64,000 bases of DNA from Candidatus Poribacteria bacterium (GCA_016215705.1 JACRIR010000053.1:18010-82009), one strand, 5' to 3'; numbered from the stretch's first letter, positions 109 to 32,604 are shown. The notes: a model not told the origin generated them from the sequence alone. Translations and numbers: made by a program.

Positions 109-1533
109 TCACACCCCCCCTCCCGTGAGAACCACCTTGATCGTCTTGAGTAGAATAATAAGGTCGAGAACCAAAGATTGATTGACAATGTAGTAGAGGT
201 CGTATTCGAGCTTTTTCCTCGACGAGTCCAGGGAATCCGCATAGCCGCAATTGACTTGCGCCCAGCCGGTAATGCCCGGTTTCACAAGAAGGCGAACCGA
301 GTAGTTTGGTATTTTTTCGGAATAATCCTCACTGGCTCGAGATTCGACCGAACGCACGTACTCCTCGACGAACGTCGGTCGCTCGGGTCTCGGACCAATG
401 ACACTCATTTCGCCCTTCAGCACGTTCACAAGCTGAGGCAGTTCGTCGAGTCGCGTCTTGCGAATAAACTTGCCCACCCGGGTGATACGTGGGTCTTCTT
501 TGTGTGAAAAGACTGCACGCCCATCCTTCTCTGCGTCCATGTGCATGGAACGGAATTTGCAAAGGGTGAAAACACAGCCGTCTTTGCCTACACGCTTCTG
601 ACGGTAGAATATGGGGCCACCGGAATCAAGCCTTATGGCAACCGCAGTCAGAAGAAGCAAAGGAGAACAGACGACAAGCCCAAACAGCGCCGCCGCGAAG
701 TCAAACAATCTTTTGACCTTTCTTTGAAAAGAACTCGTCAACCTCTCGGTGCGATACAAAAGCCATTCGGGCGTGAGGAAATCACAGGGTATCCTGCCGA
801 AGAACTCACTGTAGAAACTGAACCTGTCAATCACGCGGATTCCATTGAGTCTGCACTTCACGAGAGTCTGTTTCATTTCGCGAGTCAGCCGCTCGTACGT
901 GGACGCGATGACAACGCCGTCAGCCGCCAAATCGGAGGCAAGTACTCCCACCTCGTTGCCGTCGCCGAGGATTCTCCATGACTCGACGGAGGTCTCGGTC
1001 GCAGATGTTGGATTGTTGAGCGCCCCAAGCGGGTCGACACTGTTCCAGGAATTGCGATCGATATCATCGAGAAGAGTCTTGCCCGCCTGGCCTGTGCCGA
1101 TAATAAGAATTCTCGTCTTCCGTGCGCTCCGACGGCCCAATCTCGATATTATCCGTCGCGATGAGATCGTGCCCAGGAACACTACTCCACCGATGAGCAC
1201 AAGGATTGTTCTGCCCAGCCTCAAGGGTAAATGGGCGTAGAAAAGGACGGTTGACAGCAGAAGCGGCGCCACCGTGGCAAGCGCGATGGCAAGGATTGTG
1301 CGATTGCTCCGGATATTGCCACTTGGGTTGTAAAGGTCTGCGACATAGAACGTCGCGGCGTAGAACAGCGAGAGCAGAACCAGCGACAGCAAATGGGAGT
1401 AAATGTAAAGGACACCTTCGCCAATTCCGAGTCTGAGGAACGCAGAACCCAGGAGCGCAACCCAAATGGTGATTTGGTCCGCGCAGGCAAGCGCCAGTTT
1501 ACGGCGTGAGATCGTGTGACTTATTATTCGCAT
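109..1533 (-). CDS. Polyprenyl-phosphate sugar-1-phosphate transferase (exopolysaccharide initiating enzyme)
   Basis: This 474-residue protein should transfer a sugar-1-phosphate from a nucleotide sugar to undecaprenyl phosphate, the first membrane step of repeat-unit assembly. Four or five hydrophobic segments fill residues 10-125. A Rossmann-like nucleotide-binding stretch follows (ILIIGTGQAGKTLL, about 142-155). The C-terminal bacterial sugar transferase domain starts near 270 with a membrane hairpin and contains KFRSM and the catalytic RLDELPQ (Asp363-Glu364), then VIGPRPERP. Length and layout match the WcaJ/EpsB class found in exosortase-associated polysaccharide loci. It is the last gene of the minus-strand operon, 4 bases after the radical SAM gene. 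The sugar (glucose, galactose or an N-acetyl sugar) cannot be read from the sequence. Confidence 0.9.
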   Translation of the reverse strand: MRIISHTISRRKLALACADQITIWVALLGSAFLRLGIGEGVLYIYSHLLSLVLLSLFYAATFYVADLYNPSGNIRSNRTILAIALATVAPLLLSTVLFYAHLPLRLGRTILVLIGGVVFLGTISSRRIISRLGRRSARKTRILIIGTGQAGKTLLDDIDRNSWNSVDPLGALNNPTSATETSVESWRILGDGNEVGVLASDLAADGVVIASTYERLTREMKQTLVKCRLNGIRVIDRFSFYSEFFGRIPCDFLTPEWLLYRTERLTSSFQRKVKRLFDFAAALFGLVVCSPLLLLTAVAIRLDSGGPIFYRQKRVGKDGCVFTLCKFRSMHMDAEKDGRAVFSHKEDPRITRVGKFIRKTRLDELPQLVNVLKGEMSVIGPRPERPTFVEEYVRSVESRASEDYSEKIPNYSVRLLVKPGITGWAQVNCGYADSLDSSRKKLEYDLYYIVNQSLVLDLIILLKTIKVVLTGGGV

Positions 1534-1537
1534 AATA

Positions 1538-3013
1538 TCAGGTTATCCCGAGCCAATCCACAAGTTTCCTCGAGTCTCCAACCAGTGTCTTCGGTGAACT
1601 GTAATAGAGAGAAGCGCGAGTCTTGGCCTTCTTCAGCAATAACGACGGCTTTCGGTTGTATCGCTCGAACTTCCGGATCGCCGTTCTTGTGATTTCGGAG
1701 AATTCACCCGGACTCATGTGCAGTGTAAAGCTGTTGTGGGGACTTTGATGGCTGAACTGGCTCCAGTCGCGGTCTTGCGGGAACAAGCCCGTCTTGACGG
1801 AATTCTCGTAGAGCTCCGTTCCCGGATAGGGCGTGAAAATGCTGAAGGTGCACCAGCATGGTCGCAGCGTGTCAATGCTCTCCAATGTCCTGGCGATGTC
1901 ACTGATGTCTTCCTGCGGGAATCCGATCATAAAGAAGGCGGACCAGTAAATCTCGTTTCGGTTGAGCATCTCGGCCACCTCCCGCATTTTTTCCAAAGTT
2001 TCTCCCTTTTTTATCGCCTCAAGAATCCGAGGGCTGCCGCTTTCCACACCTACTTCCACATTGTTGCAGCCGGCGAGCTTCATCTCACTGATAAGCTCCT
2101 CGTCAAGAAGATCGAACCGGGTATTGCATCCCCATTTGACGTCGAGTTGCTCGCTGCGGATCGCTTCACAGAACTCCAGCGTTCTGTTCTTCCTTAGCGT
2201 GAAGCAATCATCCCAAAAAGTAAATTGGCGGGTTCCAAACTTTTCGCGAATGAACCTGATTTCCTCGATGACGTTGTCGACCGACCGATATCTCACCTTG
2301 TGCGTCCAGACGGTATGCGCGGCGCAATAGGTGCATCTGAAGGGGCACCCCCGGGTTGTAATCATGTTGCCCATGTTTTCCGGATCGACGACCCTGTTTC
2401 CGAGCAACAGGTCTCGGGCAGGAAAGGGAATCGAATCGAGGTCATCTATGAGTGTGCGGGTTCGGTTGTGTGTGATTACGCCGTCGGGATTCTTGTAGGA
2501 TATGCCTTGCACGTTTCTCAAATCGGACTTAGCCCCCAGGGCATCGATGAGCTCGACAATCGTGGTTTCTCCCTCGCCATGGACAACTATGTCCAACTCG
2601 CCGCGCGAGAGAACTTCGCGGGCGCAGTTGGTCGAGTGCGGCCCGCCCATGATAACGGGGGCATGAGGAAACAGTTTCTTGGATATTGCCGCGACGGAAA
2701 CGGCAGAGGCGAACTTTACGGTAGGGGCCGTTATGCCGACGACATCGGGGGCATATCGGCGGATGGTCTCCCCTATTTCCTTCCAAACGGCATGTCCGTT
2801 GTTCCCGAGAGCGTCCAAATACAGGTTGAAAGAGCTTAGTAGCTCGGAAGAACGCAAATAGCGCTGTTTGTCGTGGAATTCCGCATTGTAGATTCTGACA
2901 TCGTGTCCCCGGTTCCTGAGCACGGCAGCGAGGTATCCGATACCCAGCGGAAACCAATCGCATTTGAAGCGCATGAATCTCTGAAATGGAGGATCAATCA
3001 ATAGTATTCTCAT
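1538..3013 (-). CDS. B12-binding radical SAM protein
   Basis: The 491 residues have a cobalamin-binding-like Rossmann domain at the N-terminus (about 1-150) and a radical SAM core with the cluster motif CPFRCTYC (Cys223, Cys227, Cys230). The HxxG cobalamin-ligand motif is not obvious, as in many members of this class. Family members are usually methyltransferases or perform ring and chain rearrangements using a 5'-deoxyadenosyl radical, but the substrate here is unknown. It overlaps the upstream glycosyltransferase gene by 4 bases (ATGA), so translation is probably coupled, and it is the first of four such enzymes scattered among glycosyltransferases in this operon. A role in altering a sugar residue or lipid carrier of the polymer is inference from position only. 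Confidence 0.85.
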   Translation of the reverse strand: MRILLIDPPFQRFMRFKCDWFPLGIGYLAAVLRNRGHDVRIYNAEFHDKQRYLRSSELLSSFNLYLDALGNNGHAVWKEIGETIRRYAPDVVGITAPTVKFASAVSVAAISKKLFPHAPVIMGGPHSTNCAREVLSRGELDIVVHGEGETTIVELIDALGAKSDLRNVQGISYKNPDGVITHNRTRTLIDDLDSIPFPARDLLLGNRVVDPENMGNMITTRGCPFRCTYCAAHTVWTHKVRYRSVDNVIEEIRFIREKFGTRQFTFWDDCFTLRKNRTLEFCEAIRSEQLDVKWGCNTRFDLLDEELISEMKLAGCNNVEVGVESGSPRILEAIKKGETLEKMREVAEMLNRNEIYWSAFFMIGFPQEDISDIARTLESIDTLRPCWCTFSIFTPYPGTELYENSVKTGLFPQDRDWSQFSHQSPHNSFTLHMSPGEFSEITRTAIRKFERYNRKPSLLLKKAKTRASLYYSSPKTLVGDSRKLVDWLGIT

Positions 3014-4152
3014 TTTCCCCTCCCATCGAGCAATGACAGATACAACTGCCCTGTTTTTTTAACCATCTTCTCGAGAGTGAAGTTTTGCATTACCCTTTCC
3101 TTGGCCGCCATCCCGAGAGCGGTTGCGCGGCGCCGGTCGGACAACAGTCCGATAATGGCGGAGGCAAGCGAAGGCGGGTCCCCCGGCGGAACAATCGCCG
3201 CCGCCTCGCCCACCATTTCCGCTATCCCTCCCACCTCGGTCGCGGCCACGGGCCTCGCGAGCGCCATTGCCTCCAGCAAAGCCCAGGGAAATCCTTCCTT
3301 CACGGACGAAAGCGCGAAGACGTCGAATGCCGGAACAAACTGTGTGGCGTCTTCCCTGTAACCATAGAAATGAACTCTATCCTTCAATCCTTTCGACTCC
3401 ACCTGCGAGCAAATGTCTGCCAGCATCGGACCGTCTCCTATGAGGACCGCATGAACATCCTTCAGGTTGCGGGACACAATCTCGAAGGCATCGACAAAGA
3501 AGCCAAGCCCTTTGTTAGGATAGAAATTGGCAATCGTTCCTATGACTCTGCTGTTTGGCGGCAGCCCGATGTCTTCTTTGTTGAACCCGCGGGTCTGCGC
3601 CAGGCCGCCGGCGTCTATGCCGTTGTGTATCGTCGTTATCTTGTCCTCCCTGCATACTCCTTTTTGGAGGGCCGAGCGTCGGTCGTAATCCGAGACTGCA
3701 ATAATGTGGTCTCCGAGCCGGGCGCCCAGCTTTTCCTCCATGAGCGCGACGTAGTGTCGGAGGCGGCCGGAAGGCTCGTTGAATGAGAATCCATGGGCCG
3801 TGAACACGATGAGTGGAGTGTGCGCCATGGCTGCCGCAAGCCGTCCGACAAGACCGGCCTTTGTGCTATGGGCCGCTACGATGTCGAATTTCCCCCCTAC
3901 GATTATTCGATAGAGTTCCTTTGTGCACGCAGCGTCGAGCAAAGGAGACAGGGACCGCTTCAATGTGGGAAGAGACAGAACCGGCACTCGCGCTCTTTTC
4001 AGCCGCTGGATGAGCCGCTCACCTGTTCCACAAACAACCATCGTCTCGAAGACGGTGTTCAGCCGGCTTGAGAGATGAAAGACGTGGTTGGCCGCACCTC
4101 CCGGTTCAGCCTCGGAATTCGTAATGATTCTGAGTATTCGGTGCGACTTCAT
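3010..4152 (-). CDS. Glycosyltransferase family 4
   Basis: This 380-residue protein has the GT-B fold of retaining family 4 enzymes. The N-terminal acceptor half contains the Gly-rich turn EPGGAANHV (15-23), and the C-terminal nucleotide-sugar half has the EX7E motif EGFPWALLE (Glu286 and Glu294) followed by the usual ARPVAATEVGG stretch. There is no membrane segment, so it would work at the inner face of the cytoplasmic membrane and add one sugar to the lipid-linked repeat. The start is ATG, overlapping the stop of the preceding glycosyltransferase gene by 4 bases. Donor and linkage cannot be predicted. Confidence 0.88.
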   Translation of the reverse strand: MKSHRILRIITNSEAEPGGAANHVFHLSSRLNTVFETMVVCGTGERLIQRLKRARVPVLSLPTLKRSLSPLLDAACTKELYRIIVGGKFDIVAAHSTKAGLVGRLAAAMAHTPLIVFTAHGFSFNEPSGRLRHYVALMEEKLGARLGDHIIAVSDYDRRSALQKGVCREDKITTIHNGIDAGGLAQTRGFNKEDIGLPPNSRVIGTIANFYPNKGLGFFVDAFEIVSRNLKDVHAVLIGDGPMLADICSQVESKGLKDRVHFYGYREDATQFVPAFDVFALSSVKEGFPWALLEAMALARPVAATEVGGIAEMVGEAAAIVPPGDPPSLASAIIGLLSDRRRATALGMAAKERVMQNFTLEKMVKKTGQLYLSLLDGRGK

Positions 4153-5306
4153 GAAAGCAACCCCTTTCCACGTGCCACTTCCCGGTAAAGTTGCTCGGTT
4201 TCAGAGACCATCTTTGCGACACTGAAGCATTGCTCAGCACGCTTCCGGCCGGCTGCCCCCATCTCTCTTGCGCGATAGGGCCGACCCAGTATCTTGTTGA
4301 TGGCCTCAGCCAAAGGGCGCGACTGCGCCGGCGGCACAAGCAGTCCCGTGACGCCATGTTCCACGATTTCGGGTATCGCGTCCACCATCGTCGAAACGAC
4401 GGGGAGTCCCGCTGCCATGGCCTCCAATAATACAAGTCCGAAACCTTCGCTAAGTGACGGCAAGACAAAAAGGTCCAACTGCGGCAATATGGCCGCAACA
4501 TCCGCCCGATATCCAAGAAAGGTGATTTTCTCGTCGAGATGCAAATCGTGAACCTGGGCCCGGAGAGCCCCCGCAATCGCGGTGTCTTCGCCCCCGATAA
4601 CCAGTAGATGCGCCTCCTTGTTCGCTTTCAATACCTCCGGCAAGGCATCAAAAAGATACCTATGTCCTTTTGGGGGCATGAGTCGGGCGACTACACCAAG
4701 AAGTTTTGTTCCCGGTGGAAGACGAAGCTGATTGCGCAGGTCGTTTGTCCCCGGGTCGGATGATTGCTTGACGTCGTATCCGTAGTGGATGACCCTCAGT
4801 TTTCCGTTGGAAACGCAACCGTTGCGAACCAGATGTTCTCCTACGGCGCGTGAGATTGCGATTATTCTGTCAGCCATAGCAAAACTGATCTTTGCAATGC
4901 TGTTTGTGGGAAATCTGGCGAAACGCCGACTTGTGTTATGCACCGACACAATCACCGATGGGACCCCGCTCCAACGCGCTGCAGGGATTCCATAAAGCTG
5001 AGACCTCAGGAGATGAACGTGGACGATATCGAATCTCCCTGCCTTCATGAGGTTAGCCAACCTTCCGAAAGCGCGGAGATCGAGCAGGGAGCCTGTTTTC
5101 AGACTGACCGAAGGGATTCCTCTATCCTCGAACTGCGAAACGAGCGAATCCGACCAGCCTGCCGAATCATCGAGATAAGCATAAACCGGCTCGAAGGCGG
5201 AACGATCAAGTCTGCCCAGCAAACAAAGCAGATGCGCCTCGGCGCCGCCCATCGAGATGCTGTTGGTGACGTGGAGAATCTTCAGTTTTCTGCCAGTTTT
5301 GGCCAC
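4149..5306 (-). CDS. Glycosyltransferase family 4
   Basis: This is a 385-residue GT-B retaining glycosyltransferase. The motif SMGGAEAHL (18-26) opens the acceptor half, RLMPPKGHRYL near 208-218 starts the donor half, and EX7E reads EGFGLVLLE (Glu287, Glu295). The start is a GTG preceded by AAAGGA nine bases away. It overlaps the end of the deacetylase gene by 25 bases, which fits tight packing of the operon; a slightly later start is possible. The role is addition of a sugar to the growing lipid-linked oligosaccharide, with specificity unknown. Confidence 0.87.
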   Translation of the reverse strand: MAKTGRKLKILHVTNSISMGGAEAHLLCLLGRLDRSAFEPVYAYLDDSAGWSDSLVSQFEDRGIPSVSLKTGSLLDLRAFGRLANLMKAGRFDIVHVHLLRSQLYGIPAARWSGVPSVIVSVHNTSRRFARFPTNSIAKISFAMADRIIAISRAVGEHLVRNGCVSNGKLRVIHYGYDVKQSSDPGTNDLRNQLRLPPGTKLLGVVARLMPPKGHRYLFDALPEVLKANKEAHLLVIGGEDTAIAGALRAQVHDLHLDEKITFLGYRADVAAILPQLDLFVLPSLSEGFGLVLLEAMAAGLPVVSTMVDAIPEIVEHGVTGLLVPPAQSRPLAEAINKILGRPYRAREMGAAGRKRAEQCFSVAKMVSETEQLYREVARGKGLLS

Positions 5307-6187
5307 TGTTCCAGTCCTTTGTAGTTGATGAGACGAATGCTTTGTTTGTGAACGACTTCCTTCAAACGTTCACTCACGAGCGCGGCGCGTTCTTCTTCCC
5401 TCTGTCTTGCGCGCTGGATCGAGCCACCGAGGAAACCAGCGAGCCTGTCGTCCGCGCTACCCGGATGCGTAAGCATCTCACAGATGCCCGGTCTGACGTG
5501 GCGCATGAGGGCTTCATAACGGCCAACAACACTCAAGGACGGCGGCATGAAACAGCTCGGGAGACTGTAAACACGGTTGATTGTTCTCACGCCGGCGATG
5601 CGCAGCGAAGGGCGCCCGCGACGACACAGGGCGCTCGTAAACCTCTTTTTGGCATGTCGCCACGTTACGAAACCATGCAGAATGCTCGAGAATCCGTCAA
5701 AATTCGGCGGCTCATAGGGGAGTCTTACAGGCATTCGCGTTTCTTCTGCAACCTTGAGAAAGACCTTGAATATGGTTGGAATCATCATGGTGTTCTGATG
5801 GCTGTCGATGTGTGTGGGTTCGATTCCGGCGTCGAGCGTCTTCTGCAACTGAGCGCGTATCTCGGTTTCCACGTGGCTTACACGCAGCCCTCCACGCAGC
5901 CATTGTTTCAACAGAAGGGACCTTGGAAGAAACTTCCCGTCCGGGCCGACCAGAGAAGAGACGCTGTCTGTCCGCGCCACCGGAGACCCGAAAGTCAAGT
6001 TTATATGCACACCTATTCCGAGAGAGGGGTTCCGTTGCGCGTGGGAGACCGCGTCTTCAAACGCCCATGCGTTGGTCATGAGCGTAGTGCTTGTGACAAT
6101 GCCATTTCGGTGGCAATCGATTATGGCGTCGTTAACGCCTTCGGTGAGCCCAAACTCGTCGGCGTTGACGATCAGATACGTTTCCAT
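5282..6187 (-). CDS. ChbG/HpnK (YdjC-type) carbohydrate deacetylase
   Basis: Members of this family remove N-acetyl groups from amino sugars using a divalent metal. The motif IVNADEFGLTEGVNDAI at the N-terminus carries the catalytic Asp-Glu pair, HIDSHQN in the middle supplies metal-binding histidines, and CEMLTHPG near the C-terminus completes the site. I chose the ATG at 6187 (301 residues), which has GAGGAA six bases upstream. An extension to 6229 is open but lacks family similarity. It lies between the aminotransferase and a glycosyltransferase. With the CE4 deacetylase at 23111 it suggests that free amino groups are created on the polymer or its precursor; that is inference. Confidence 0.85.
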   Translation of the reverse strand: METYLIVNADEFGLTEGVNDAIIDCHRNGIVTSTTLMTNAWAFEDAVSHAQRNPSLGIGVHINLTFGSPVARTDSVSSLVGPDGKFLPRSLLLKQWLRGGLRVSHVETEIRAQLQKTLDAGIEPTHIDSHQNTMMIPTIFKVFLKVAEETRMPVRLPYEPPNFDGFSSILHGFVTWRHAKKRFTSALCRRGRPSLRIAGVRTINRVYSLPSCFMPPSLSVVGRYEALMRHVRPGICEMLTHPGSADDRLAGFLGGSIQRARQREEERAALVSERLKEVVHKQSIRLINYKGLEQWPKLAEN

Positions 6188-6236
6188 TTGAGTTCCTCTC
6201 ATAGAGAAAATCCCGAGGCACGGAGCCATCCCTCAA

Positions 6237-7328
6237 CTATTTCAGACACTTCTTGAGTGCTGCGCTGACACGCTCCAACTGGCCGTCACGCATGCCCTGA
6301 TGTACGGGCGCGTACGCCAGCCGCCGGCCAATCCTGCTTGCAATCGGGTACCTCGCTTCATCGACCTCGAGCGGGAGGTCCAACCATAACGGCCTCACAA
6401 CGATTCCTTCTCGGAGCATCTGCCGTATGAACGACGGCCGGTCTTGTACGAACAAGGGGAATCCCATCGGACTCACTCCGTCAGAGAGCGCCCGGGGCAG
6501 CGGGCAGCCGTTTGCATGGCCGTCGGTCTCGTGGAGCAGAAAACAGTAGTTCTTTCTTCTAAGCGCCACCGTCGCAGATGAATCGACATGGGACAGGACC
6601 CTTGCCGACACACGCGCTGAGCCTCGAAGAACTGGTGTGGCCGCGGCGTCTCTTGTCGCAACGGCTCGCCGCAGGCCCTCGTTCTTCAGGAGCCAAAGGC
6701 GTGGAGAAACACGCAGAAGGTTTTCGGCATATCTTGCGAAGTATCTTGATGTCGAAAGCAATTCAGACAACAGAGGACGTGAGAGAGTCAACGAGAAAAG
6801 GTGATGCGCCTCATTCCACGCGAGTATGCCGCCGCCGGGCGCAGGAAGAACCTTTCGAATGCTGAAGAATGAAAAAGCGCCGGATGAGCCGAGGCGCTTG
6901 CCGTCCACGCGAGAATAAAGAGCGTGGGCGCAATCCTCAATCAATAGCATACCAGTTCGCTTGCAGAACTCGACCGTCTCTTGCATCGGTTGCGGGAATC
7001 CAAGGTAGTGAATGACGACCATGGCTTCGGCCCGTTCTCTATGCTTTTCGAGCCATTCAAGGTCGGGGCTAAGGTCGTCTCGAAGCTCATAAAACACGGG
7101 AATGGCCTTGACCGCCTTCGTTGCCGAGACCAGAGCGCCACAGCATAGCGCCGGCAGCAGAATCCGTGTCTGCTCCCGCAGCCTCAGCATGCGGAGACCC
7201 AGAGCATACGCATTCCTGCCGCCGGAAGTCAGAATAACGTCCTGCTCCCATGAGAAACCACGCGCGCTTTCTCTACCCAGCAAATCGGCAGGTCTTGGCG
7301 GCGGTTCCGGAGTAATGAGTGATCTCAT
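6237..7328 (-). CDS. DegT/DnrJ/EryC1/StrS-type PLP aminotransferase
   Basis: This 363-residue fold-type I PLP enzyme usually transaminates keto-sugar nucleotides to amino sugars. IEDCAHALYS carries the PLP-pyridine Asp, and FSIRKVLPAPGGG holds the Schiff-base lysine (about Lys159 from this start). The ATG at 7328 has GGGAG five bases upstream; a TTG at 7343 is the alternative. The family resemblance is clear but the sequence is divergent: the C-terminal part, around DRPSFIRQMLREGIVVRPLW, matches the usual end of the family. It sits between a FemAB-like acyltransferase and a deacetylase, which fits amino-sugar formation and modification. Some family members are not sugar enzymes, so the substrate remains open. 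Confidence 0.8.
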   Translation of the reverse strand: MRSLITPEPPPRPADLLGRESARGFSWEQDVILTSGGRNAYALGLRMLRLREQTRILLPALCCGALVSATKAVKAIPVFYELRDDLSPDLEWLEKHRERAEAMVVIHYLGFPQPMQETVEFCKRTGMLLIEDCAHALYSRVDGKRLGSSGAFSFFSIRKVLPAPGGGILAWNEAHHLFSLTLSRPLLSELLSTSRYFARYAENLLRVSPRLWLLKNEGLRRAVATRDAAATPVLRGSARVSARVLSHVDSSATVALRRKNYCFLLHETDGHANGCPLPRALSDGVSPMGFPLFVQDRPSFIRQMLREGIVVRPLWLDLPLEVDEARYPIASRIGRRLAYAPVHQGMRDGQLERVSAALKKCLK

Positions 7329-7373
7329 TCCGACTCCCGGCAAGCTATGCGCAATGATCCACTGTTTCTTGCC

Positions 7374-13904: not shown

Positions 13905-14609
13905 CTAGTTCTTCCTTAGCGTGAAGCACACCTGTTGCGCGAAAAGGTTCGGCATAAGGTCTCGCAAAAGCGGGATGCCACTCGCCGCTTCTTCCGAGCA
14001 AATCGTAAAACCAAGGTGGCGAACCCAGCCTCTGAAATCGGAAACGCTCCAGAAGCGAACATGCTCGGCCGGATGGCACACCCATTGCGATGGGAAGCGG
14101 CCGGCAAACATAAGGCAAAGCCGGTTCAACAGGTAAGCGATGTTTGGCGCTGAGATGACTATGGCATCGGAGCACTCGGCCGCGGATGTCATCAATCTCT
14201 CCGCCTCAACACAATGTTCGACGACTTCGGTCAGCACGGCAAAATCGAAACGTCCATATTCGTTTCCCAATGGCTCGGCCGCAACGTCACGGACTATCGC
14301 TGTTACCCCCTTTTGACGCGAAAGCGAAACCGCGCGTTCCGATATGTCGATCGCGACCACGTCGCAACGCTTGCGGCTTCCGAGATAGTGCGCAAAGTCG
14401 CCCGAGCCGCATCCTATCTCCAGCACACGGGAGCGGTCCGGTATGTGGCCTGCAAGCAGCATATGCCGCCGTTTCAGGTGCGCCTTTCCCTCGAGCAACC
14501 GCCAGTAGCTGTCATAGTCGAGGCACTCGTCCTTGTATTCCGGTCGCCTGACGTATTCCATGCCGGGAAGCAGCCGGGTCGTCAATCTTCTCGCCAATCC
14601 TACCTGCAT
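13905..14609 (-). CDS. Class I SAM-dependent methyltransferase
   Basis: The 234-residue protein carries the SAM-binding motif VLEIGCGSGDFAHYLG (about 63-78), an acidic end of strand 2 (VVAIDISERAV) and FDFAVLTEVVEHC as motif II. Small enzymes of this class in polysaccharide loci often methylate sugar hydroxyls or phosphates on the repeat unit, sometimes as chain caps. The gene overlaps the upstream glycosyltransferase stop by 10 bases. The substrate is unknown. Confidence 0.82.
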   Translation of the reverse strand: MQVGLARRLTTRLLPGMEYVRRPEYKDECLDYDSYWRLLEGKAHLKRRHMLLAGHIPDRSRVLEIGCGSGDFAHYLGSRKRCDVVAIDISERAVSLSRQKGVTAIVRDVAAEPLGNEYGRFDFAVLTEVVEHCVEAERLMTSAAECSDAIVISAPNIAYLLNRLCLMFAGRFPSQWVCHPAEHVRFWSVSDFRGWVRHLGFTICSEEAASGIPLLRDLMPNLFAQQVCFTLRKN

Positions 14610-23906: not shown

Positions 23907-25916
23907 TCACCATCCTTCGGCAACACCATCCCTGACTTGCTGCCATCGCGTGACATACTGTTCGATATCGACCCTTGAGGGATATAGCAGGCGGGCAAGA
24001 CGGAATTCCCTATCCGTTGCATCCGTCGCCGACGCAGGTCTGCCGACCGCGAGGGCGTATCCCAGAGAGAGATGATACAGCGCATTAGTCGGCTCCAGAC
24101 GCACGGCGGATGCGTATTCGCTTGCAGCCTGCTCAAAAAAGAAGGTGCGCTGCGCCTCGCCACGGTCCGACCGGCCGGCGCGCTCCTCGCAGATTCTCCC
24201 GCGCGCATAGGCGTATTCGGAATTGATCGGGTCCAATACTCTTGCCGCCTTGAGGCGTCGCAGGGCAATCTCCCAGCCTCTCGCGCCGTCCTTCTTGATC
24301 GAAGACTCTGCAAGCAAGCAATGAATACTTGCGGCGGACGCCGAAATGGTCGCAAGCGAGAGAAGAACACAAAGCGACGCTGCTCCCGCGCAGCCGTACT
24401 TCAGTGACCTCCCTGATGGCAGTATCCTGATCTCATGGAACCGTGGCGCAGAGGTGTAGTAAGGAAGCATTGAATTCAGGGTAATGCCTGCAACAACCGC
24501 GAACGTCAGCGCGTTTGCGGTTATGTGAAAGTTGAAATCCACGATCGCATGGAGCAGGAGCGAGAGCACGCCTATGAGCGAGGCTATCGCCAGCGGCCCA
24601 AACTGCAAGCGCTGTCTCTTTATCAACCAGTGAATCGGCACGGCGACAAAAGCAAGAAGCGTGACAAACATGCAAGCAGACCCGACAAGCCCGGTCTCGG
24701 CGAGAAACTCGACATAATCATTATGAGCATGGTTGTAGAATATGCCGCCTTCAAGCGTCTGGTAGATGGGGAATCCATATCTGTACGCGCCCAGCCCGAC
24801 CCCAAACCAAGGAAACTCGAGCGCCATACGGAGTGAGTCACGCCACACGTGCAGGCGCGCCGAGTCCACCATCGAGAGAATATGTGGTGAAACCGAATTC
24901 GCCCCCATGCTCACGCCGATGCAAACGAGCAGAAAACTCGCGAGCAAGAAGAGACGCCGTCTTCCCGAGACTATTCGTATTGCCAGCGTGACAAGCACGA
25001 TGAATGACGCCGCAATAAGACTTGTGATCCCGCCGGCGGAACCTGATCGAAAGAGTGTCCAAAGCATGATCGAAGCACAGAACAGGAGAAAGAACCTTTG
25101 AAAAATGGGCGAGTCGGCGTCTGCGAGTCGGCGAAATAAGTCCTTGCTACGCCCGCGCCGGCTTTGCCGAACAGCCAGCGCGATGGTCAGAGGTATGGCC
25201 ATCTCCATATATCCCGCAAAATGGTTCTTGTTCACAAAAGTCCCGCAAAAGCTGCCTTGACCCACCTTCCAATACCGCGACCGCCAGAACCCATAGATTC
25301 CCTCGGCGTTCGCTCTCTGCTGCAGCAACCCGATGAATGCCACGGCAAATCCGACGCACGCAATCGCGAGCGCAAGCTTCTTAAGCTCGCCTTCGGTCCG
25401 AAAAAGGTTGACGACAATCAAGAAGAGCGCCATGAAAGCGGCCAGCTTCGAGAAAGCTCCGACCGTCGCGCAAGGATACAGACTCAAAGTTCGAAACCCT
25501 TCGGCTGCAACCGACCCCGAAGCCGTCCGTCTGAGAAACGCCGTCGCCGGAGAGACAATTTCGAGCAAACGCAAAGGCGCTGGAAAAGTTTGAACCAGGG
25601 CAAGCAGGAGGAGCAGACAAATAAATGGCCACGCAGCCGGCAAAGGAAGCACAAAATACCCTTTCTCGAGCGTTTTGACGGCAAACACCGTGGCGCACAG
25701 GAATACAGCCAATTCCGCGAGGGAGGAAGACCATGAATGAACGGCGCCAAGCGCTAAAGGCATGAATATGAGAAGGCCGACAACTCCTTTGATTATGAAC
25801 TGATCGCGCAAATCGCTCTCTATCTTCCGGCGTTTCCCTTCATTCGGTTTGCGGCCTTCCTCCGGGCGGACGCTTTTCAAAGGCATCTTTGAAGCATGCG
25901 CGTATACGTGACTCAT
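23907..25916 (-). CDS. O-antigen polymerase/ligase-like protein with C-terminal TPR region
   Basis: The 669 residues comprise about eleven to twelve transmembrane segments in the first 480 residues, with the Wzy_C periplasmic loop FGVGLGAYRYGFPIY and NHAHNDYVEFLAETG. A soluble C-terminal region with tetratricopeptide-like helices follows (LKAARVLDPINSEYAYARG, then ASAVRLEPTNALYHLSLGYA). This two-part layout is common among exopolysaccharide polymerases in Wza/Wzc-type systems. It lies directly behind the Wzc-like gene, so it is my preferred candidate for the polymerase; the protein at 8489 would then be a ligase or a second polymerase. Confidence 0.86.
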   Translation of the reverse strand: MSHVYAHASKMPLKSVRPEEGRKPNEGKRRKIESDLRDQFIIKGVVGLLIFMPLALGAVHSWSSSLAELAVFLCATVFAVKTLEKGYFVLPLPAAWPFICLLLLLALVQTFPAPLRLLEIVSPATAFLRRTASGSVAAEGFRTLSLYPCATVGAFSKLAAFMALFLIVVNLFRTEGELKKLALAIACVGFAVAFIGLLQQRANAEGIYGFWRSRYWKVGQGSFCGTFVNKNHFAGYMEMAIPLTIALAVRQSRRGRSKDLFRRLADADSPIFQRFFLLFCASIMLWTLFRSGSAGGITSLIAASFIVLVTLAIRIVSGRRRLFLLASFLLVCIGVSMGANSVSPHILSMVDSARLHVWRDSLRMALEFPWFGVGLGAYRYGFPIYQTLEGGIFYNHAHNDYVEFLAETGLVGSACMFVTLLAFVAVPIHWLIKRQRLQFGPLAIASLIGVLSLLLHAIVDFNFHITANALTFAVVAGITLNSMLPYYTSAPRFHEIRILPSGRSLKYGCAGAASLCVLLSLATISASAASIHCLLAESSIKKDGARGWEIALRRLKAARVLDPINSEYAYARGRICEERAGRSDRGEAQRTFFFEQAASEYASAVRLEPTNALYHLSLGYALAVGRPASATDATDREFRLARLLYPSRVDIEQYVTRWQQVRDGVAEGW

Positions 25917-25928: not shown

Positions 25929-28205
25929 TCATGCCTTCACAGACGGTTCTTCTGCGGGTTTCAGATGCTCTTTGGACGTCCGACGCTCCTTTTCACCGTT
26001 ATCGTCATAGTAGTATCCGTATTTTGCGTATCCGTAAGAATAGGATTCAGCCTCGGAATCGGCGTTATTGAGCACTATGCCGATAACGCGGGCACTGATT
26101 TCTCCCAAAGCCGAGACGGTTCTCCGGAGGCTGTGACGCTGCGTTCTGCCGACGCTCGCAAGCACAATCGTGCCATCAACCTTATTCGAGACGATTGCAG
26201 GATCGGTGACCAGCAGCACCGGAGGCGAATCAAAAATCACGACGTCGTAGTTCTGCCGCGCCTCGGCGATAAGATCTTCCATGGCTTTCGATGAGAGGAG
26301 TTCAGACGGATTCGGCGGAATCGGCCCGCAGGGAAGCAGGGAAAGATTCCCTCCGGCTGTTGGGCGCGCGCACTTCTCGAGAGGCAACTGGCCCGCGAGA
26401 ATATTGCTCAGTCCGGGCGAATCCTTAATGCCAAAGACTTTATGGATTCGAGGTCTTCTGAGATCAGAGTCAATCAGGAGGACTTTCTTCTGCAGTTGCG
26501 CCAAAGTGACTGCTAGGTTGCACGCAAAGAGAGTCTTCCCTTCTTGTGTGCCCGAAGATGTGACGAGGAGCGTCCTCCCGCCGGTCCCCAGAGTCGAGAA
26601 CAGAATATTGGTTCTGATGTTTCTGAAGGCTTCCGAGATCGCCGATTTCGGATGGAACGCGGTGACCAGTTCTCCGTCCTCTTTGCCGTTGTCGCTTCGT
26701 TTGAAATGCCTGACCATGCCGAGGAATGGGAGGTCCACGTACTGCTCGACGTCCTCGCTGTTTTTTATTGTGCTGTCCATTTGATCCAGGACCAGCGCCA
26801 AACCCACGCCAAGGACAAGCCCCGCAACGACCGCAACGAACATGTTGAGGGCGCGGCGGGGACGAACCGGTTTATTGGGAATGTACGAGGGATCCACAAT
26901 CGCGATGTTTGACGCCCTGAGACCCTCGGTCAGGCTTGTCTCCTTCGCCCTCTTGAGCAGATTCTCATACATGAGGCGCTCGCTCTCCGCCTCACGTTTC
27001 AATACGTTGTAGTAGATTTCCTTCTGGTTGAGATCAAGCGCCTCGTGTTTCTGAGCCTCGAGGGCCGCCATGAGCGACCTCTCATTTGCGACCGCCATGC
27101 GGTGCTCCATCTCGATGCTTTCTCCGATCTTGTAGATTTCGGCGTCGATCTTCTTGTCCAACTGCTCAAGTTCGGACTCCAGACTGATCATCTGCGGGTG
27201 CGCCGGTCCGAACTTCTGAGCCCATTCCGATCTTCTGGCATCGAGTCCGACTCTTTCGGATTTCAACTTCTGGATGAGCGAGTTGTTAACTACCGCCGGA
27301 AGCGACTCGAGCAGCTTCGGGTTGGAGCGCGCTTTGGCGAACTCGCGATAGTGGCTTTCTTTCTCGATCGTCTCGGTTCTCGCATTCGTTAAAGCAGTGT
27401 TGAGGTCGCTCAATTTCTGGACGATTATGTTGTGCCGTTCTTCGAGGTCGACTGAAACGAGATTCTTCTCCTCGCGGTACTTCTGGAGTGTCTGCTCCGA
27501 CTCCTCAAGCTTTGCCTGAACGGTGGCGATGCGCCCCCTGATCCACCCGACCGCATCTTGTGAAGCCGAGAACTTCCTGTCGAGTGTGGTCTCGATATAA
27601 AGACGCGCATGCTCATCCGCGATGCGGGCCGCCAGACGCGGGTCGGTCGACTCGAAACTTATATTCACAAGCCGGCTGTTCCTCACCGGTTCAATGTTCA
27701 GGGAGCGGAGGTAACGGTCTATCAATATCTGCAACTTCCGTTCTTCAGATTCGGGCTTGCGTTCCGGCGCATGGCCCGATGGGTTCGGACCTTCGCCGGA
27801 TGCGCGCGAACCTGTCAGCCCGGCAAGAACGGTACGTTTGGGCTGCGGATTGAAGACGTCATTCGAGGCCAAATCGAGCGATTCCACGGCCCTCCTTGCA
27901 AGCGAGCGACTCTTGAGTATCTCATACTGGGTCAGGTAATAGTCAGTATCCGCTGTGTCTACGGCAAGCACTTCTTGCACGTCAACGACATTGGGATTCT
28001 CGCGGTCAATGAGGACTTGAGTGGTCGCCCTGTAGACTCGCGGAGCCCCGAACGACTTGATCGCCGTCACCGTGACGGTCACAAGAAAAACGGACGCGAC
28101 GGCCCATCGCCGTTTCCAGAGCGCTCGAAGCAAAGCTGAAAGAACAATGGGATTATAGAAGGACTCAGGCTTGTTCACGCCTGCGACGGTGATCCTGTTA
28201 TTCAT
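25929..28205 (-). CDS. Wzc-like polysaccharide copolymerase with BY-kinase domain
   Basis: This 758-residue inner-membrane protein controls chain length and export. A Wzz-type N-terminus carries a first membrane helix (about 34-50), a long periplasmic coiled-coil region spans 200-430, a second membrane helix lies at about 454-473, and a cytoplasmic tyrosine autokinase follows. The Walker A motif SGTQEGKT contains Lys557, Walker A' is LLIDSD (Asp581), and Walker B is VVIFDSPP (655-662). A C-terminal tyrosine cluster (Tyr722 to Tyr733, seven Tyr) is the likely autophosphorylation site. No matching phosphatase gene is visible in the window. It begins 13 bases after the exporter gene. Confidence 0.93.
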   Translation of the reverse strand: MNNRITVAGVNKPESFYNPIVLSALLRALWKRRWAVASVFLVTVTVTAIKSFGAPRVYRATTQVLIDRENPNVVDVQEVLAVDTADTDYYLTQYEILKSRSLARRAVESLDLASNDVFNPQPKRTVLAGLTGSRASGEGPNPSGHAPERKPESEERKLQILIDRYLRSLNIEPVRNSRLVNISFESTDPRLAARIADEHARLYIETTLDRKFSASQDAVGWIRGRIATVQAKLEESEQTLQKYREEKNLVSVDLEERHNIIVQKLSDLNTALTNARTETIEKESHYREFAKARSNPKLLESLPAVVNNSLIQKLKSERVGLDARRSEWAQKFGPAHPQMISLESELEQLDKKIDAEIYKIGESIEMEHRMAVANERSLMAALEAQKHEALDLNQKEIYYNVLKREAESERLMYENLLKRAKETSLTEGLRASNIAIVDPSYIPNKPVRPRRALNMFVAVVAGLVLGVGLALVLDQMDSTIKNSEDVEQYVDLPFLGMVRHFKRSDNGKEDGELVTAFHPKSAISEAFRNIRTNILFSTLGTGGRTLLVTSSGTQEGKTLFACNLAVTLAQLQKKVLLIDSDLRRPRIHKVFGIKDSPGLSNILAGQLPLEKCARPTAGGNLSLLPCGPIPPNPSELLSSKAMEDLIAEARQNYDVVIFDSPPVLLVTDPAIVSNKVDGTIVLASVGRTQRHSLRRTVSALGEISARVIGIVLNNADSEAESYSYGYAKYGYYYDDNGEKERRTSKEHLKPAEEPSVKA

Positions 28206-28218: not shown

Positions 28219-29172
28219 CTAGAAAAAGCTCTCTGGAACTATTATTACGTCCTGACCGTTTACGCTGTCAGTCATTTGAACGCGTTTTTCGCTCCGGGCC
28301 CCGTTCTCCTCGCGAAGAATCTTTGTCCTTTTCACCGAGGCGATTTCCGTGAATCCGCCCGCCATGGTGATGGCCTTGAGCACCGTCGTGTCGGGCTCGA
28401 GAACATACCGGCCCGGGCTCTTCACCTGACCGGAAACGAAGAAATACTGAGCCGGAGGAATGTAGACGGTGTCCCCATCCTCGAGAAAGATGTTCTGCGT
28501 CGCGTCACCCCCAAGCAGCCGCTTGACGTTAAGTTTCGTGATTTTTGCGGCCCCCGACTCCTGAGGCAGGAGCGGCCCTTTGACCCTTTCGTTCGCGGAC
28601 GGCCTCACAACGATTACCTCGCTCCCTGCCTCAGGCGTGAGTCCGCCCGCTGCCGAAAGGACTTCTATGAGGGACGTGTGTCCGGTCAACGGATAGGCGC
28701 CAGGACCCTTGCCGTGTCCTTGCGGTCCGCCAACCTCTCCCAGCACAAACACCTGCTTGCTCTTGAACTCTTCAACCACAATCGTTAATTGCGGGTTGAT
28801 AAGATACTTGCCGCTGAGTCGCCCGGTTATTTCCTGCTCAACTTGAGAAACCGATAGTCCGTCAGCGTGGACTTTCCCTATGAGTGGATATGAAAAATTG
28901 CCTTCTTCCGAGATTTGAACGGATCGAGTGAGGTCGTCATGTCCCCAGACCGTTATTTTCAGGCTGTCGCCGGGGCCCAAGACATAGTCCGAATCTGTTG
29001 ATTTGGTGGTTTCCGTCGAAACCCTGTGCGCGGCAGAGGCCGAAGCGACGGCCCCCTTTGAAGGGGAATCGTCTCTTCTGCCGGGTTCAGGCTCGCCTGC
29101 GTTGCTCGGATAACTGGCGCAGCCGAGCAAACCCACAACCAAAGTGGAGGTCAGGAAGATCTTCAGCGACAT
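28219..29172 (-). CDS. Wza-like polysaccharide export outer-membrane lipoprotein
   Basis: From the ATG at 29172 the protein has 317 residues and a lipoprotein signal with lipobox LLGC (Cys18). An upstream GTG at 29187 would add five residues. The Poly_export domain (PF02563) begins at YVLGPGDSLKITVWGHDDL; one or two SLBB domains follow (VFVLGEVGGPQGHG, then FFVSGQVKSPGRYVLEPD). Such lipoproteins form the outer-membrane channel that docks with Wzc. It sits between the beta-barrel gene and the Wzc-like gene, the usual order. Confidence 0.92.
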   Translation of the reverse strand: MSLKIFLTSTLVVGLLGCASYPSNAGEPEPGRRDDSPSKGAVASASAAHRVSTETTKSTDSDYVLGPGDSLKITVWGHDDLTRSVQISEEGNFSYPLIGKVHADGLSVSQVEQEITGRLSGKYLINPQLTIVVEEFKSKQVFVLGEVGGPQGHGKGPGAYPLTGHTSLIEVLSAAGGLTPEAGSEVIVVRPSANERVKGPLLPQESGAAKITKLNVKRLLGGDATQNIFLEDGDTVYIPPAQYFFVSGQVKSPGRYVLEPDTTVLKAITMAGGFTEIASVKRTKILREENGARSEKRVQMTDSVNGQDVIIVPESFF

Positions 29173-29193
29173 TGTTTCAAATCCCACCCTTCG

Positions 29194-30459
29194 TCAAAAT
29201 AACATTGATAACGAGAGAAACACCTGGTTTTCCGTATAATCCTCGCTGGATTTGTTTGAGTCATTATTGATAATCCGATATCTCATTGTGAGACCCAGCC
29301 ACTGTTTGAAGTAATAGTCGATTCCTAACCCGAAGGAGAGACGATCATCTTCCCTTTCCCTCCCCGTAACATCCGGGTCGGTGTAGTCATCATTGAAGAA
29401 GGCCGCCTCGACCACCCCATAAATCTTGCCGGTAAGCTTGTGCCTCAGCAGGGCGGCGCCCCCGGTGCGGAAGTAGTCAACCCCGAAAGGTTGCTCTCCG
29501 CGTGTGGCCTCGGTTTGTATGAGTTCGCGTGAGGCCGAAAAGTCGAGGGTGGTTCTGGATGTCAGCGAATACTGGAGGTTTGCCTGCATGCCGAAACTAT
29601 TGTGATCGTTGGATATGTCATCGTAGTCGCGCCTGATATACCCGCCTTTCGCCGTCCCGCGCAGTTTGGCGGTGGGCTCCCACGTGAGGCCCAACCAGAG
29701 CCGGTGGTTGTCATTGTCGGTGGAGAAGTTTCCCTCGTCGGTGTTGTCGACATGCGAGAAATAGTATTCTACGAGCGCCCACGTCTTGGGCAAGAATCGA
29801 TAATAGAGAGTTCCACTGGCGGCGTCCTCACTGTAGTTGTCTATCTCGGCCCTCGAGCTGTCGAAGTCCTTGACCGAGTGCGCATAGGCCGCTTTCGCAG
29901 TATAGCGAGTGCCGAACGCATAGGCGGCTTCGACCGCAGTCGTATTGAAGTTGAACTCCTCTCGCGTGTCGCCGGGAAAATCCGGAGGAGTGGAAGAGCG
30001 TCTGAACGTGTCGCCGACCTTGAGGGTCAGACCACGCCCGAAGCGCAGGTTCGCGAGGGCTTGCGCATAATGCTCATCCGTATTGTAGCGCTCGAATTGT
30101 CCCAGTCTGATAACGTCGGCGCGATACTCCGCCTGAAGCGTGTTCCGTTGGATAGGCAATTGCAGAGCCAGCGAAGGGCTAAGGATTGAAAGGAAGTTGT
30201 CCTTTTCGTCCGATGGGGTCAGAAAGAAGTTGTCGGTATACTTCTCAGAGAACGCCATCCCCGGGAAAATGCGCACCGGCCCCAAATGTATGTTTCCCGG
30301 ATACTCGCGAATTTCCATAGGCGGAACGTATCCGGGGTAGACAATCGGTCCCTGCGCCCTGGCATTCCCACTCATAAGAACGAGGATGCCCATGATCGCG
30401 ATTACTCGCACGACTTCCGTCGATATAGGCCGATAGCGAAAGTGCGGTCTTTCCGTCAT
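29194..30459 (-). CDS. Outer-membrane beta-barrel protein of the exopolysaccharide locus
   Basis: The 421-residue protein has an N-terminal hydrophobic stretch ending in NARAQG (signal cleavage after Ala-Gln-like residues), an early segment GPVRIFPGMAFSEKYTDNFF, and then alternating aromatic and polar strands up to a C-terminal Phe (LSLSMLF), the classic barrel ending. It resembles the capsular or exosortase-associated outer-membrane beta-barrel family found next to Wza homologues. It probably assists polymer passage or anchoring at the outer membrane. The ATG at 30459 has GGGAGG five bases upstream; an open extension to 30510 is less likely. No enzymatic motif is visible. Confidence 0.84.
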   Translation of the reverse strand: MTERPHFRYRPISTEVVRVIAIMGILVLMSGNARAQGPIVYPGYVPPMEIREYPGNIHLGPVRIFPGMAFSEKYTDNFFLTPSDEKDNFLSILSPSLALQLPIQRNTLQAEYRADVIRLGQFERYNTDEHYAQALANLRFGRGLTLKVGDTFRRSSTPPDFPGDTREEFNFNTTAVEAAYAFGTRYTAKAAYAHSVKDFDSSRAEIDNYSEDAASGTLYYRFLPKTWALVEYYFSHVDNTDEGNFSTDNDNHRLWLGLTWEPTAKLRGTAKGGYIRRDYDDISNDHNSFGMQANLQYSLTSRTTLDFSASRELIQTEATRGEQPFGVDYFRTGGAALLRHKLTGKIYGVVEAAFFNDDYTDPDVTGREREDDRLSFGLGIDYYFKQWLGLTMRYRIINNDSNKSSEDYTENQVFLSLSMLF

Positions 30460-30522
30460 TCCCGCCTCCCTTTTCTTTAGACATGACAAGCGAAGAGGAA
30501 ACACAGCCACTAGAAGGATCGT

Positions 30523-30981
30523 CTACTCGGAGACACTCGCTCCCCCGCCACCGCCCGCTCCCCCGAGCGTCGATGGAGATGGAGCCCCCTGAGAACCAGC
30601 CGCCGGCCGGCTCAGTTCCGGAGGCAGCGGCAAATCAAAGTTTACGCCCAAATCGCGCAGTATCGCCTGTATCTTTTCGACTGTGAGTTCAAGCTTGCCG
30701 TTTTCCGCAGCGTCAGCCATTTGTTTGTATAATTGCAGAACCACATCGGGCGTCATTTCCGCATCCGGCTTCCAACCGCCGTCCGGCTCAATACCCATTT
30801 CCTTGAGTTTGCCGATGGCGTCCTTGACGGTCGGTCCCTCCGCGATTCCGAGTTTCTGAGCCAAGGCGACCGCATAGCCGCCTTGCGTCACGATCTCCTC
30901 GGCTGCAACGGATGGCCTGACGGTCAACGACGTGGACATACAGACCAGCAAGGCAAGAGTCAATACAGACACGTAACGCAT
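30523..30981 (-). CDS. Small secreted protein, SLH-like helical repeats, Gly-rich tail
   Basis: The 152 residues start with a clear signal peptide (cleavage after about residue 27, VRPSVAA). The mature part has TQGGYAVALAQKLGI and DAIGKLKEMGIEPDGGW, a pattern of short helices and a Gly-Trp turn reminiscent of S-layer-homology-type repeats; that likeness is by eye only. The tail is rich in Pro and Gly and ends ASVSE after a run of five Gly. The start has a near-perfect ribosome site, AAAGGAGGT five bases before ATG, so expression may be strong. It lies immediately upstream of the beta-barrel gene. I do not recognise a named family. Confidence 0.72.
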   Translation of the reverse strand: MRYVSVLTLALLVCMSTSLTVRPSVAAEEIVTQGGYAVALAQKLGIAEGPTVKDAIGKLKEMGIEPDGGWKPDAEMTPDVVLQLYKQMADAAENGKLELTVEKIQAILRDLGVNFDLPLPPELSRPAAGSQGAPSPSTLGGAGGGGGASVSE

Positions 30982-31026
30982 TGATGACCTCCTTTGGTGG
31001 TTGCAGATTGCCGTCTCCCTCGCGGC

Positions 31027-32604
31027 TCAGGCGTTTCTCCTGAGCACGACACCCGGAAGCTTTCCAGCGTACTCGCCCTCTTCTATAACGACCTCGCCAT
31101 TTACGATGACGTGCCGCACGCCCTTCGGATATCCGCGCGGACGATTAATGTCGGACGTAGATTCAAGCGCCTCCGGGTCGAAAATCGTTATGTCGGCGAA
31201 GGCGTCCTTCGCGAGATACCCCCTGCGTTTGATGCCGAAACGGCTGGCGGGAATCGACGTTATCTTTCTGATGGCTTCCGGCAGACTGAGAAGATGTTTG
31301 GAATAGACAAATGAGTGCAAGAATTCCGGAAATGTCCCAAAAGTGCGTGGATGAATGATGGAATTCTTGAAGAATCGCGGATCGCCTATCGGGTAGGAGT
31401 CCGATGCGACTATGGAGTAGGAGGCCTTCGCGATTTCTTCTATGTTCGATCCATTGATGCATTCATAGTAAACGAATCTGTCAACTCCGCCTGCCAGGGC
31501 AAGCTCTGCAAGAACCGTGGATGGTTCCTTTCTGGTTGCGCGGGCAATCCGAAGGAGGTCCATCCCGCTCCATTGCCGGTATTCTTTGTCGGCGCTGCGG
31601 GGAATGGTTACAGCCCGATAGGCGCTGTTTGCAGGGAAGGCGTCCGACAATTGGTCCTCAAGTTGCTCCCGCAACCGCACGTTCGAGCAGACCTTGACGA
31701 AATGGGAACTTCCCCTGGAAGTCGTCCACTGAGGCAGAATCACCTTCAAAGGAGCGCAAACATAGCTGTACGGGAAGAAATTCAAGCTTATCTGCACCCC
31801 GGCGTTGCGCATCTTGTTCAGGAGGCTCATCGCATGCCGCTGCTTCGGCCAATTCATCCGGTCGAGTACTTTGAAATGCGAGACTTCGACCGGGACTTTG
31901 CTCTGGATACCCACCATGATGACTTCGGACAACGCATTGAGAACGTCATCCGATTCGTTGCGCAGGTGGACGGAAAGCAGACCATCCTTTCGGGCCACGA
32001 TTTTGCTGAGCTCGATCAGTTCTTTGCTCAGGTCAAGCGAAGCAGGCAAGAGGTTCATTCCACTGGACAACCCGAAGGCGCCCTCGTCCATTGCCTGCAT
32101 GACCACCTTTCGCATGGCATCCAGTTGCTCCCTCGAGGCGCCTCCGCAATTGGTAAGCCCCACGGAGTAGTGCAGCGAGTTGTGGCCTATCATGCTCCCG
32201 TAGTTCAACGCTATGCCACGGCTCTGCACCTTGCTCAAGAACCCGTCAAAAGAACTCCAGTTGAACTCAGCCTCGTTTTCGCGCGAATAGAACAGATTCG
32301 AGGTCGTCCACGGAAACGCCGAACTGCCGCAGTTGCCGCCGATTTCGGTTGTCACCCCTTGCAGCAGTTTGTTCTCCATTACGGGGTCGAATAGAAGATG
32401 CTGATCGGAATGGGCGTGCGTGTCGATGAAACCGGGAGAGACGATGAGGTGAGAAGCATCAATCACCTTTGAGGCGGCTAGTTTAGTATTTTTATCAACA
32501 ATGCAATCAATTTGACCATTTACAACGCCGATTGAGCCTTGTGAAACCGAGTTCGAAATGCCGTCGACAAGCCAGCCATTCTCGATTGCTATGTCGTAAT
32601 TCAT
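31027..32604 (-). CDS. N-acyl-D-amino-acid deacylase/D-aminoacylase family amidohydrolase
   Basis: This 525-residue metal-dependent amidohydrolase has the N-terminal beta-sandwich start DIAIENGWLVDGISNS, the metal site GFIDTHAHSDQHLLF, the stretch EGAFGLSSGMNLLPAS and the histidine of VEVSHFKVLD, and the late DSYPIGDPRFF Asp region. The family hydrolyses N-acyl-D-amino acids or related cyclic amides. The ATG at 32604 follows GAGGGA and lies about 65 bases behind an extended -10 sequence, so it appears to be the first gene of the exopolysaccharide operon; only 45 bases separate it from the next gene. A link to polymer or D-amino-acid decoration is inference. Confidence 0.85.
   Translation of the reverse strand: MNYDIAIENGWLVDGISNSVSQGSIGVVNGQIDCIVDKNTKLAASKVIDASHLIVSPGFIDTHAHSDQHLLFDPVMENKLLQGVTTEIGGNCGSSAFPWTTSNLFYSRENEAEFNWSSFDGFLSKVQSRGIALNYGSMIGHNSLHYSVGLTNCGGASREQLDAMRKVVMQAMDEGAFGLSSGMNLLPASLDLSKELIELSKIVARKDGLLSVHLRNESDDVLNALSEVIMVGIQSKVPVEVSHFKVLDRMNWPKQRHAMSLLNKMRNAGVQISLNFFPYSYVCAPLKVILPQWTTSRGSSHFVKVCSNVRLREQLEDQLSDAFPANSAYRAVTIPRSADKEYRQWSGMDLLRIARATRKEPSTVLAELALAGGVDRFVYYECINGSNIEEIAKASYSIVASDSYPIGDPRFFKNSIIHPRTFGTFPEFLHSFVYSKHLLSLPEAIRKITSIPASRFGIKRRGYLAKDAFADITIFDPEALESTSDINRPRGYPKGVRHVIVNGEVVIEEGEYAGKLPGVVLRRNA

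Follow-up and report, generated by a model that had tools for sequence, protein, structure and literature searches.

The window analysed here, a stretch of 64,000 nucleotides from Candidatus Poribacteria (positions 18010-82009 of contig C232 in a 5.47-Mb genome bin of 270 contigs, G000), carries between positions 109 and 32604 a tight run of 26 minus-strand open reading frames (ORFs), with 4-base overlaps or small gaps, in which a pathway for exopolysaccharide assembly is interspersed with four genes for B12-binding radical S-adenosylmethionine (SAM) proteins, hereafter rSAM1-4. By profile searches of the operon proteins we recovered a complete Wzx/Wzy set (initiating transferase, flippase, polymerase, co-polymerase and export protein), together with seven GT4-family glycosyltransferases (GTs), two Wzy_C proteins and two class-I methyltransferases (Table 1). 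The original prediction, made from the DNA alone, had proposed a single operon of 26 same-strand genes with a full Wzx/Wzy/Wza/Wzc pathway, and it held on both counts: all the ORFs are present and every component has a profile match, while three listed ORFs had over-long starts and were revised (GT4c to ~12448, Wzx to ~13902 and the polysaccharide deacetylase to ~23905).

What sets the operon apart is the number of its B12-binding radical SAM proteins (B12-rSAMs). For a census we took 60 stretches centred on Wza genes, none longer than 20 kb, of which four came from this phylum and 56 from other genomes, and searched them with a profile built from 196 B12-rSAM proteins, which distant members may escape; 56 of the 60 held no B12-rSAM, four held one, and none held two or more, in line with the earlier claim that ordinary loci have none or one. 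A stretch of equal size within this operon holds two, and the whole operon four. Literature searches for B12-rSAMs in exopolysaccharide loci returned nothing relevant, and we found no paper describing such an operon. The operon is real and unusual; its enzyme types are of known kinds, and their setting appears to be undescribed.

Table 1. Genes of the operon and the second glycan locus, in window coordinates
Feature	Position	Strand	Evidence
Initiating polyprenyl-phosphate sugar-phosphate transferase (exopolysaccharide type)	109-1533	-	PF02397 E 8e-70; TIGR03025 398 bits (cut-off 295.55)
rSAM1, B12-binding radical SAM, 491 aa, CPFRCTYC	1538-3013	-	PF04055, PF02310
GT4 glycosyltransferase a	3010-4152	-	PF13692, PF00534
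GT4 glycosyltransferase b	4149-5306	-	PF13692, PF00534
YdjC-family carbohydrate deacetylase, HpnK-like	5282-6229	-	PF04794 E 6e-60; NF002559 158 bits and HpnK 147 bits (cut-off 232.6), both below cut-off
DegT/DnrJ/EryC1-type aminotransferase-like protein	6237-7343	-	PF01041 E 2e-21, partial
Acetyltransf_6 (FemAB/GNAT-like) transferase	7374-8498	-	PF13480 E 6e-32
Wzy_C protein 1 (polymerase or ligase)	8489-9988	-	PF04932 E 1e-14
rSAM2, B12-binding radical SAM, 462 aa, CPYPCFFC	9975-11363	-	PF04055, PF02310
GT4 glycosyltransferase c	11360-12448	-	PF13692
Wzx-type flippase	12445-13902	-	PF13440 E 9e-72
Class-I SAM methyltransferase 1	13905-14609	-	PF13489
GT4 glycosyltransferase d	14600-15841	-	PF00534; homologue in L109, 184 bits
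GT4 glycosyltransferase e	15838-16956	-	PF13692
Class-I SAM methyltransferase 2	16938-17783	-	PF08241
GT4 glycosyltransferase f	17713-18912	-	PF00534 E 1e-40
rSAM3, B12-binding radical SAM, 479 aa, CPYQCAFC	18916-20355	-	PF04055, PF02310
GT4 glycosyltransferase g	20346-21569	-	PF00534
rSAM4, B12-binding radical SAM, 511 aa, CPYSCSYC	21573-23108	-	PF02310, PF04055
Polysaccharide deacetylase	23111-23905	-	PF01522 E 2e-25
Wzy_C protein 2, C-terminal extension (ligase or polymerase)	23907-25916	-	PF04932 E 2e-18
Wzc-type chain-length determinant with tyrosine autokinase	25929-28205	-	PF02706, PF13807; TIGR01007 176 bits, above cut-off
Wza-type export protein	28219-29187	-	PF02563, SLBB
Outer-membrane beta-barrel (BBP2, EpsL-like)	29194-30510	-	PF10082 E 4e-25
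Small exported protein	30523-30981	-	No family match; signal-like N-terminus by eye
Amidohydrolase, first gene of operon	31027-32604	-	PF07969 E 4e-25
Second glycan locus	40253-52817	+	54-79% identity, same order in L069 (G001) and L049 (G002)

Four B12-binding radical SAM proteins on separate branches

All four proteins match the Pfam B12-binding and Radical_SAM domains (E 7e-18 to 4e-26), scoring 65-83 bits for the N-terminal PF02310 domain (curated cut-off 32.1) and 73-93 bits for the PF04055 core (cut-off 29.5); the CxxxCxxC motif is intact in each, as originally reported, and none of the reading frames is disabled. The cofactor site is likewise recognisable. In TsrM, TokK and OxsB a threonine or serine (Ser72 in TokK) bonds the cobalamin tail (PMC11659888), and its equivalents in rSAM1-4 are T95, T69, S66 and T83 (located by alignment in rSAM1 and by motif in the others). 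At the position of the lower-axial tryptophan of TokK rSAM2 has, judging by alignment only, a histidine (His73), a residue found there in three of the 196 B12-rSAMs: rSAM2, L171_8006 (L171, 8036-9481) and a protein of L109 (2577-3980). All three adjoin GT genes, and three relatives within the rSAM2 clade that lie outside GT loci have a glutamate; judged from the sequences, the histidine may represent a single evolutionary event.

None of the four could be placed in a family of defined function. They fall short of AprD4 (NF033070; 137, 112, 73 and 77 bits for rSAM1-4, cut-off 500) and of HpnJ (TIGR03471; 190, 176, 134 and 171 bits, cut-off 577.6), and among the matches listed none reached the cut-off of BchE, ApyD, the ladderane B12-rSAM or other NCBIfam equivalogs. 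The best solved match by sequence is AprD4 for rSAM1 (2e-34), rSAM2 (1e-28) and rSAM4 (5e-15). The fold agrees: the AlphaFold2 model of rSAM1 (mean predicted local distance difference test score, pLDDT, 90.9) has as its nearest solved structures AprD4 (Z 30.1), MgmA (29.2), CysS (28.2) and OxsB (28.1), and for that of rSAM2 (pLDDT 87.4) Foldseek ranked AprD4 first (E 5e-25), followed by TsrM. The AprD4 structure contains a saccharide substrate. Its own motif, CxxxCxxxC, which in alignment has one extra residue relative to CxxxCxxC, occurs in none of the four. We know of no sequence signature that separates the cobalamin-dependent rSAM methylases from other members.

In two trees, a broad one of 196 B12-rSAM proteins and a careful one of 41, rSAM1-4 stand on four separate branches. 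Duplication of one gene within the operon was ruled out (approximately unbiased test, p = 5e-6), and a single clade dedicated to GT loci was not supported, as GT context required 24 changes against 29 in shuffles on the broad tree and 10 against 12 on the careful one. The subgroup check that the original prediction had called for gave a divided answer: the four do belong to unrelated subgroups, and none of these has a known role.

The relatives differ from branch to branch. The rSAM1 clade numbers six proteins (support 100/99), the five others, including members from Planctomycetes, Coatesbacteria and CSSED10-310, all lying away from GT4 genes; by eye, one (L122) stands beside a CDP-alcohol phosphatidyltransferase-like gene and another (L123) beside an LpxL-like acyltransferase gene. 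rSAM2 forms a clade (99/98) with proteins of L171, L109, L113 and L117, while rSAM3, within a clade of 14, is sister (99/81) to a Patescibacteria protein (L171) flanked by GT4 genes. The closest relative of rSAM4 is a G014 protein (37-39% identical; support for the pairing 87/93), and when rSAM4 alone was used to scan the named genomes, no relative emerged.

Recurrence in glycan loci and genomic surroundings

Within the phylum, comparisons were made with two other genomes of the same family, G001 and G002. Counting full-length B12-rSAM genes that lie no more than 5 kb from a GT4 gene (against a footprint of ~4%), we obtained 8 of 19 in this genome, 3 of 15 in G001 and 5 of 17 in G002 (binomial p = 3e-7, 0.016 and 5e-4 by gene; 2e-4, 0.07 and 0.004 by locus). 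A Patescibacteria contig (L171, 1-12079; JAHIST010000013.1), a short bin contig whose assignment could be wrong, encodes in order a GT, an rSAM, a GT, an rSAM3-like protein, a GT, a methyltransferase, an rSAM2-like protein and an asparagine synthetase, so that GT4 and B12-rSAM genes, three of each, alternate; in G076 an rSAM2-type gene accompanies Wzx, a GT4d homologue, a FemAB-like protein, a GT2 and a second rSAM. By these gene orders two of the four types, those of rSAM2 and rSAM3, occur again among glycan genes in distant lineages, and in L171 both are present. Relatives of G076 scanned for its rSAM2 type gave one further case only, outside a GT locus.

The operon itself has no equivalent in the stretches of G001 and G002 read around B12-rSAM and Wza genes, and no particular rSAM-GT pair is conserved; a strict one-to-one pairing of an rSAM with a given GT was not supported. 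The nearest parallel found within the phylum is L074 (G001, contig C22), with six GT4 genes, a WecG-type GT, Wzx, Wza and two B12-rSAM genes, one of the rSAM3 clade. A further glycan locus, in G002 (L053, 3718-10415), holds two B12-rSAM genes, a SPASM radical SAM gene, a methyltransferase and GTs.

The second glycan locus of the window offers a comparison of another sort. In both relatives the orthologues of genes 41323 and 42321 are separated by a B12-rSAM gene (the two products being 69% identical), with one additional ORF there in L049, whereas the window genes themselves overlap, leaving no B12-rSAM between them, and the best match elsewhere in the genome is 35% identical. Considering that it is present in both relatives and absent where the window genes overlap, the B12-rSAM is optional in an otherwise stable glycan pathway, which is how a decorating step should behave. 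The second locus is separate from the operon, and by analogy only it supports a role in glycan tailoring there. It also encodes a radical SAM protein with no B12 domain match (48144-49550) that is kept in both relatives.

As to the operon's surroundings, its first gene starts with an ATG at 32604 and encodes an amidohydrolase, which we take to be N-acyl-D-amino-acid deacylase-like. The promoter scan upstream gave no match and was itself uninformative. The other end lies inside the contig, with two-component regulator genes below position 109, the closest on the opposite strand; the contig below the window (L009, 1-18150) is densely packed with response regulators, histidine kinases and a sigma-54-type regulator. 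GC content is even across the operon (0.54-0.56), and a recent transfer, as judged by composition, was rejected. Elsewhere in the window (33539-36108) a DsrK/TmcB-like iron-sulfur protein (DsrK 339.7 bits, cut-off 400) adjoins a NarI/DsrM-like membrane partner and a response regulator.

Proposed pathway and competing explanations

We reason that the B12-rSAMs tailor the sugars of the lipid-linked repeat unit, most likely by C-methylation at one site at least, and we give this reading an even chance. The sugar-phosphate transferase would start the repeat unit on polyprenyl phosphate, the seven GT4 enzymes would lengthen it and Wzx would flip it; a Wzy_C protein would then polymerise the units, with Wzc, Wza and the porin governing length and export. 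We infer that three or four of the B12-rSAMs act in the cytoplasm, their substrate being either the carrier-linked sugars or a precursor of a sugar. Each would hold cobalamin in its N-terminal domain and use the 5'-deoxyadenosyl radical to abstract a hydrogen from an unreactive carbon, after which methylcobalamin would donate a methyl group at one site or several to give C-methyl sugars (methylation being the single likeliest reaction); changes at the O and N positions of the repeat unit would fall to the class-I methyltransferases and the deacetylases.

Several observations weigh against this reading. The nearest fold, that of AprD4, belongs to a dehydratase rather than a methylase, and the tryptophan that follows the cluster cysteines in TokK and CysS is missing from all four proteins, which does not by itself decide the reaction. 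Most sampled B12-rSAMs (165 of 196) are not near GT4 genes, so that membership of the operon becomes the main argument; the closest kin of rSAM1 (34-43% identical) sit outside glycan loci, which makes rSAM1 the weakest case. Every rSAM does literally stand beside a GT, as had been noted; such adjacency arises in 7% of gene-order shuffles (p = 0.07), and within the operon it is for that reason weak evidence.

The fold and sequence matches to AprD4 lend themselves to a radical tailoring of the glycan that is not a methylation, namely an AprD4-like 1,2-diol dehydration yielding deoxysugars, an OxsB-like ring contraction or a cyclitol route like that of HpnI/HpnK/HpnJ, which we consider possible rather than probable. 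In the last of these forms, which shares the doubtful standing of the whole, a GT would add an N-acetylated sugar, the YdjC protein would deacetylate it and the rSAM would rearrange it to a cyclitol, much as the GT HpnI, the deacetylase HpnK and the rSAM HpnJ act in order in hopanoid biosynthesis (PMC12583986); rSAM1, GT4a, GT4b and the HpnK-like YdjC gene are indeed consecutive (1538-6229). Set against these likenesses are the scores of all four, which fall far short of the cut-offs for AprD4 and HpnJ, the differing AprD4 motif, the failure of its N-terminal part to align, and the absence of any YdjC homologue found near the rSAM1 relatives. The same rSAM1 branch, lying outside GT4 loci and with two members beside lipid-enzyme-like genes, would fit an action of at least one of the four, rSAM1 above all, on a membrane lipid, be it the polyprenyl carrier or a different one, and the lipid-acting HpnJ, HpnR and ladderane-associated families are among the top model matches (all below cut-off). 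We think this unlikely, given that rSAM1 is the operon's last gene but one, with the initiating transferase on one side and two GTs on the other, and that lipid-type neighbours occur in just two distant relatives; the modified lipid carrier of the original prediction keeps this indirect support, confined to rSAM1.

Finally, with ~19 full-length B12-rSAM genes in this genome, the four unrelated origins and an adjacency no closer than stated above, the genes might be passengers that landed in the operon and play no part in its pathway. The tight spacing with 4-base overlaps, the undamaged frames, the enrichment near GT4 genes in the phylum and the joint occurrence of the rSAM2 and rSAM3 types in another phylum make this very improbable. 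Radical modification of the glycan, as originally put forward, stands as the best reading, backed by this enrichment and co-recurrence, even though the operon was not found in G001 or G002.

More broadly, we suggest tentatively, and with some doubt, that a B12-radical glycan-tailoring toolbox, mixed with GT4 enzymes, may be common to distant phyla (this one, the G076 lineage and Patescibacteria), giving carbon-modified surface sugars and having, in the rSAM2 type, a histidine in the lower axial cobalamin space. If C-methylation or another radical tailoring is correct, there would be surface polymers with sugars that require vitamin B12 and are carbon-branched or modified by radicals in some other way, up to four radical steps in one polysaccharide assembly line, and functions for part of a very large and mostly uncharacterised enzyme group; the presence/absence pair at the second locus makes the tailoring idea directly testable.

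Comparison with known systems

A few antibiotics are known to have sugars C-methylated by radical chemistry; in moenomycin biosynthesis MoeK5 acts as a methylase on one of the sugars in a lipid-linked oligosaccharide built by GTs. MoeK5 is a methylase of the same subgroup, and its pathway differs in yielding a secondary metabolite with one such enzyme. The cobalamin-rSAM subgroup, to which the methylases GenK and MoeK5 belong, methylates unreactive carbons and also carries out ring contractions and rearrangements (PMC8992657), and in vitro GenD1, with cobalamin, adds a methyl group to a carbon of a sugar (PMC4340712). GenK and GenD1 (gentamicin) resemble what we propose for the operon in the cobalamin-dependent C-methylation of sugar carbons in an oligosaccharide, with two enzymes per pathway; their product, however, is a soluble aminoglycoside rather than a carrier-linked polymer, and GenD1 has Cx4Cx2C in place of CxxxCxxC.

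AprD4, a radical SAM 1,2-diol dehydratase with a saccharide substrate (paromamine), is the solved structure that matches best by both sequence and fold, and differs in its motif, its unaligned N-terminal part and the low scores of the window proteins (at most 137 bits against 500). The HpnI/HpnK/HpnJ route to the hopanoid cyclitol ether brings a GT, a deacetylase and an rSAM to bear in turn on a sugar (PMC12583986), the same trio of kinds as at 1538-6229, but leads to a lipid, and the window proteins reach 190 of 577.6 bits for HpnJ and 147 of 232.6 for HpnK. With Wzx/Wzy operons of the EpsL/EpsE/EpsF/EpsG type the operon shares the same assembly and export set; where none of the 60 Wza loci has more than one B12-rSAM, it has four.

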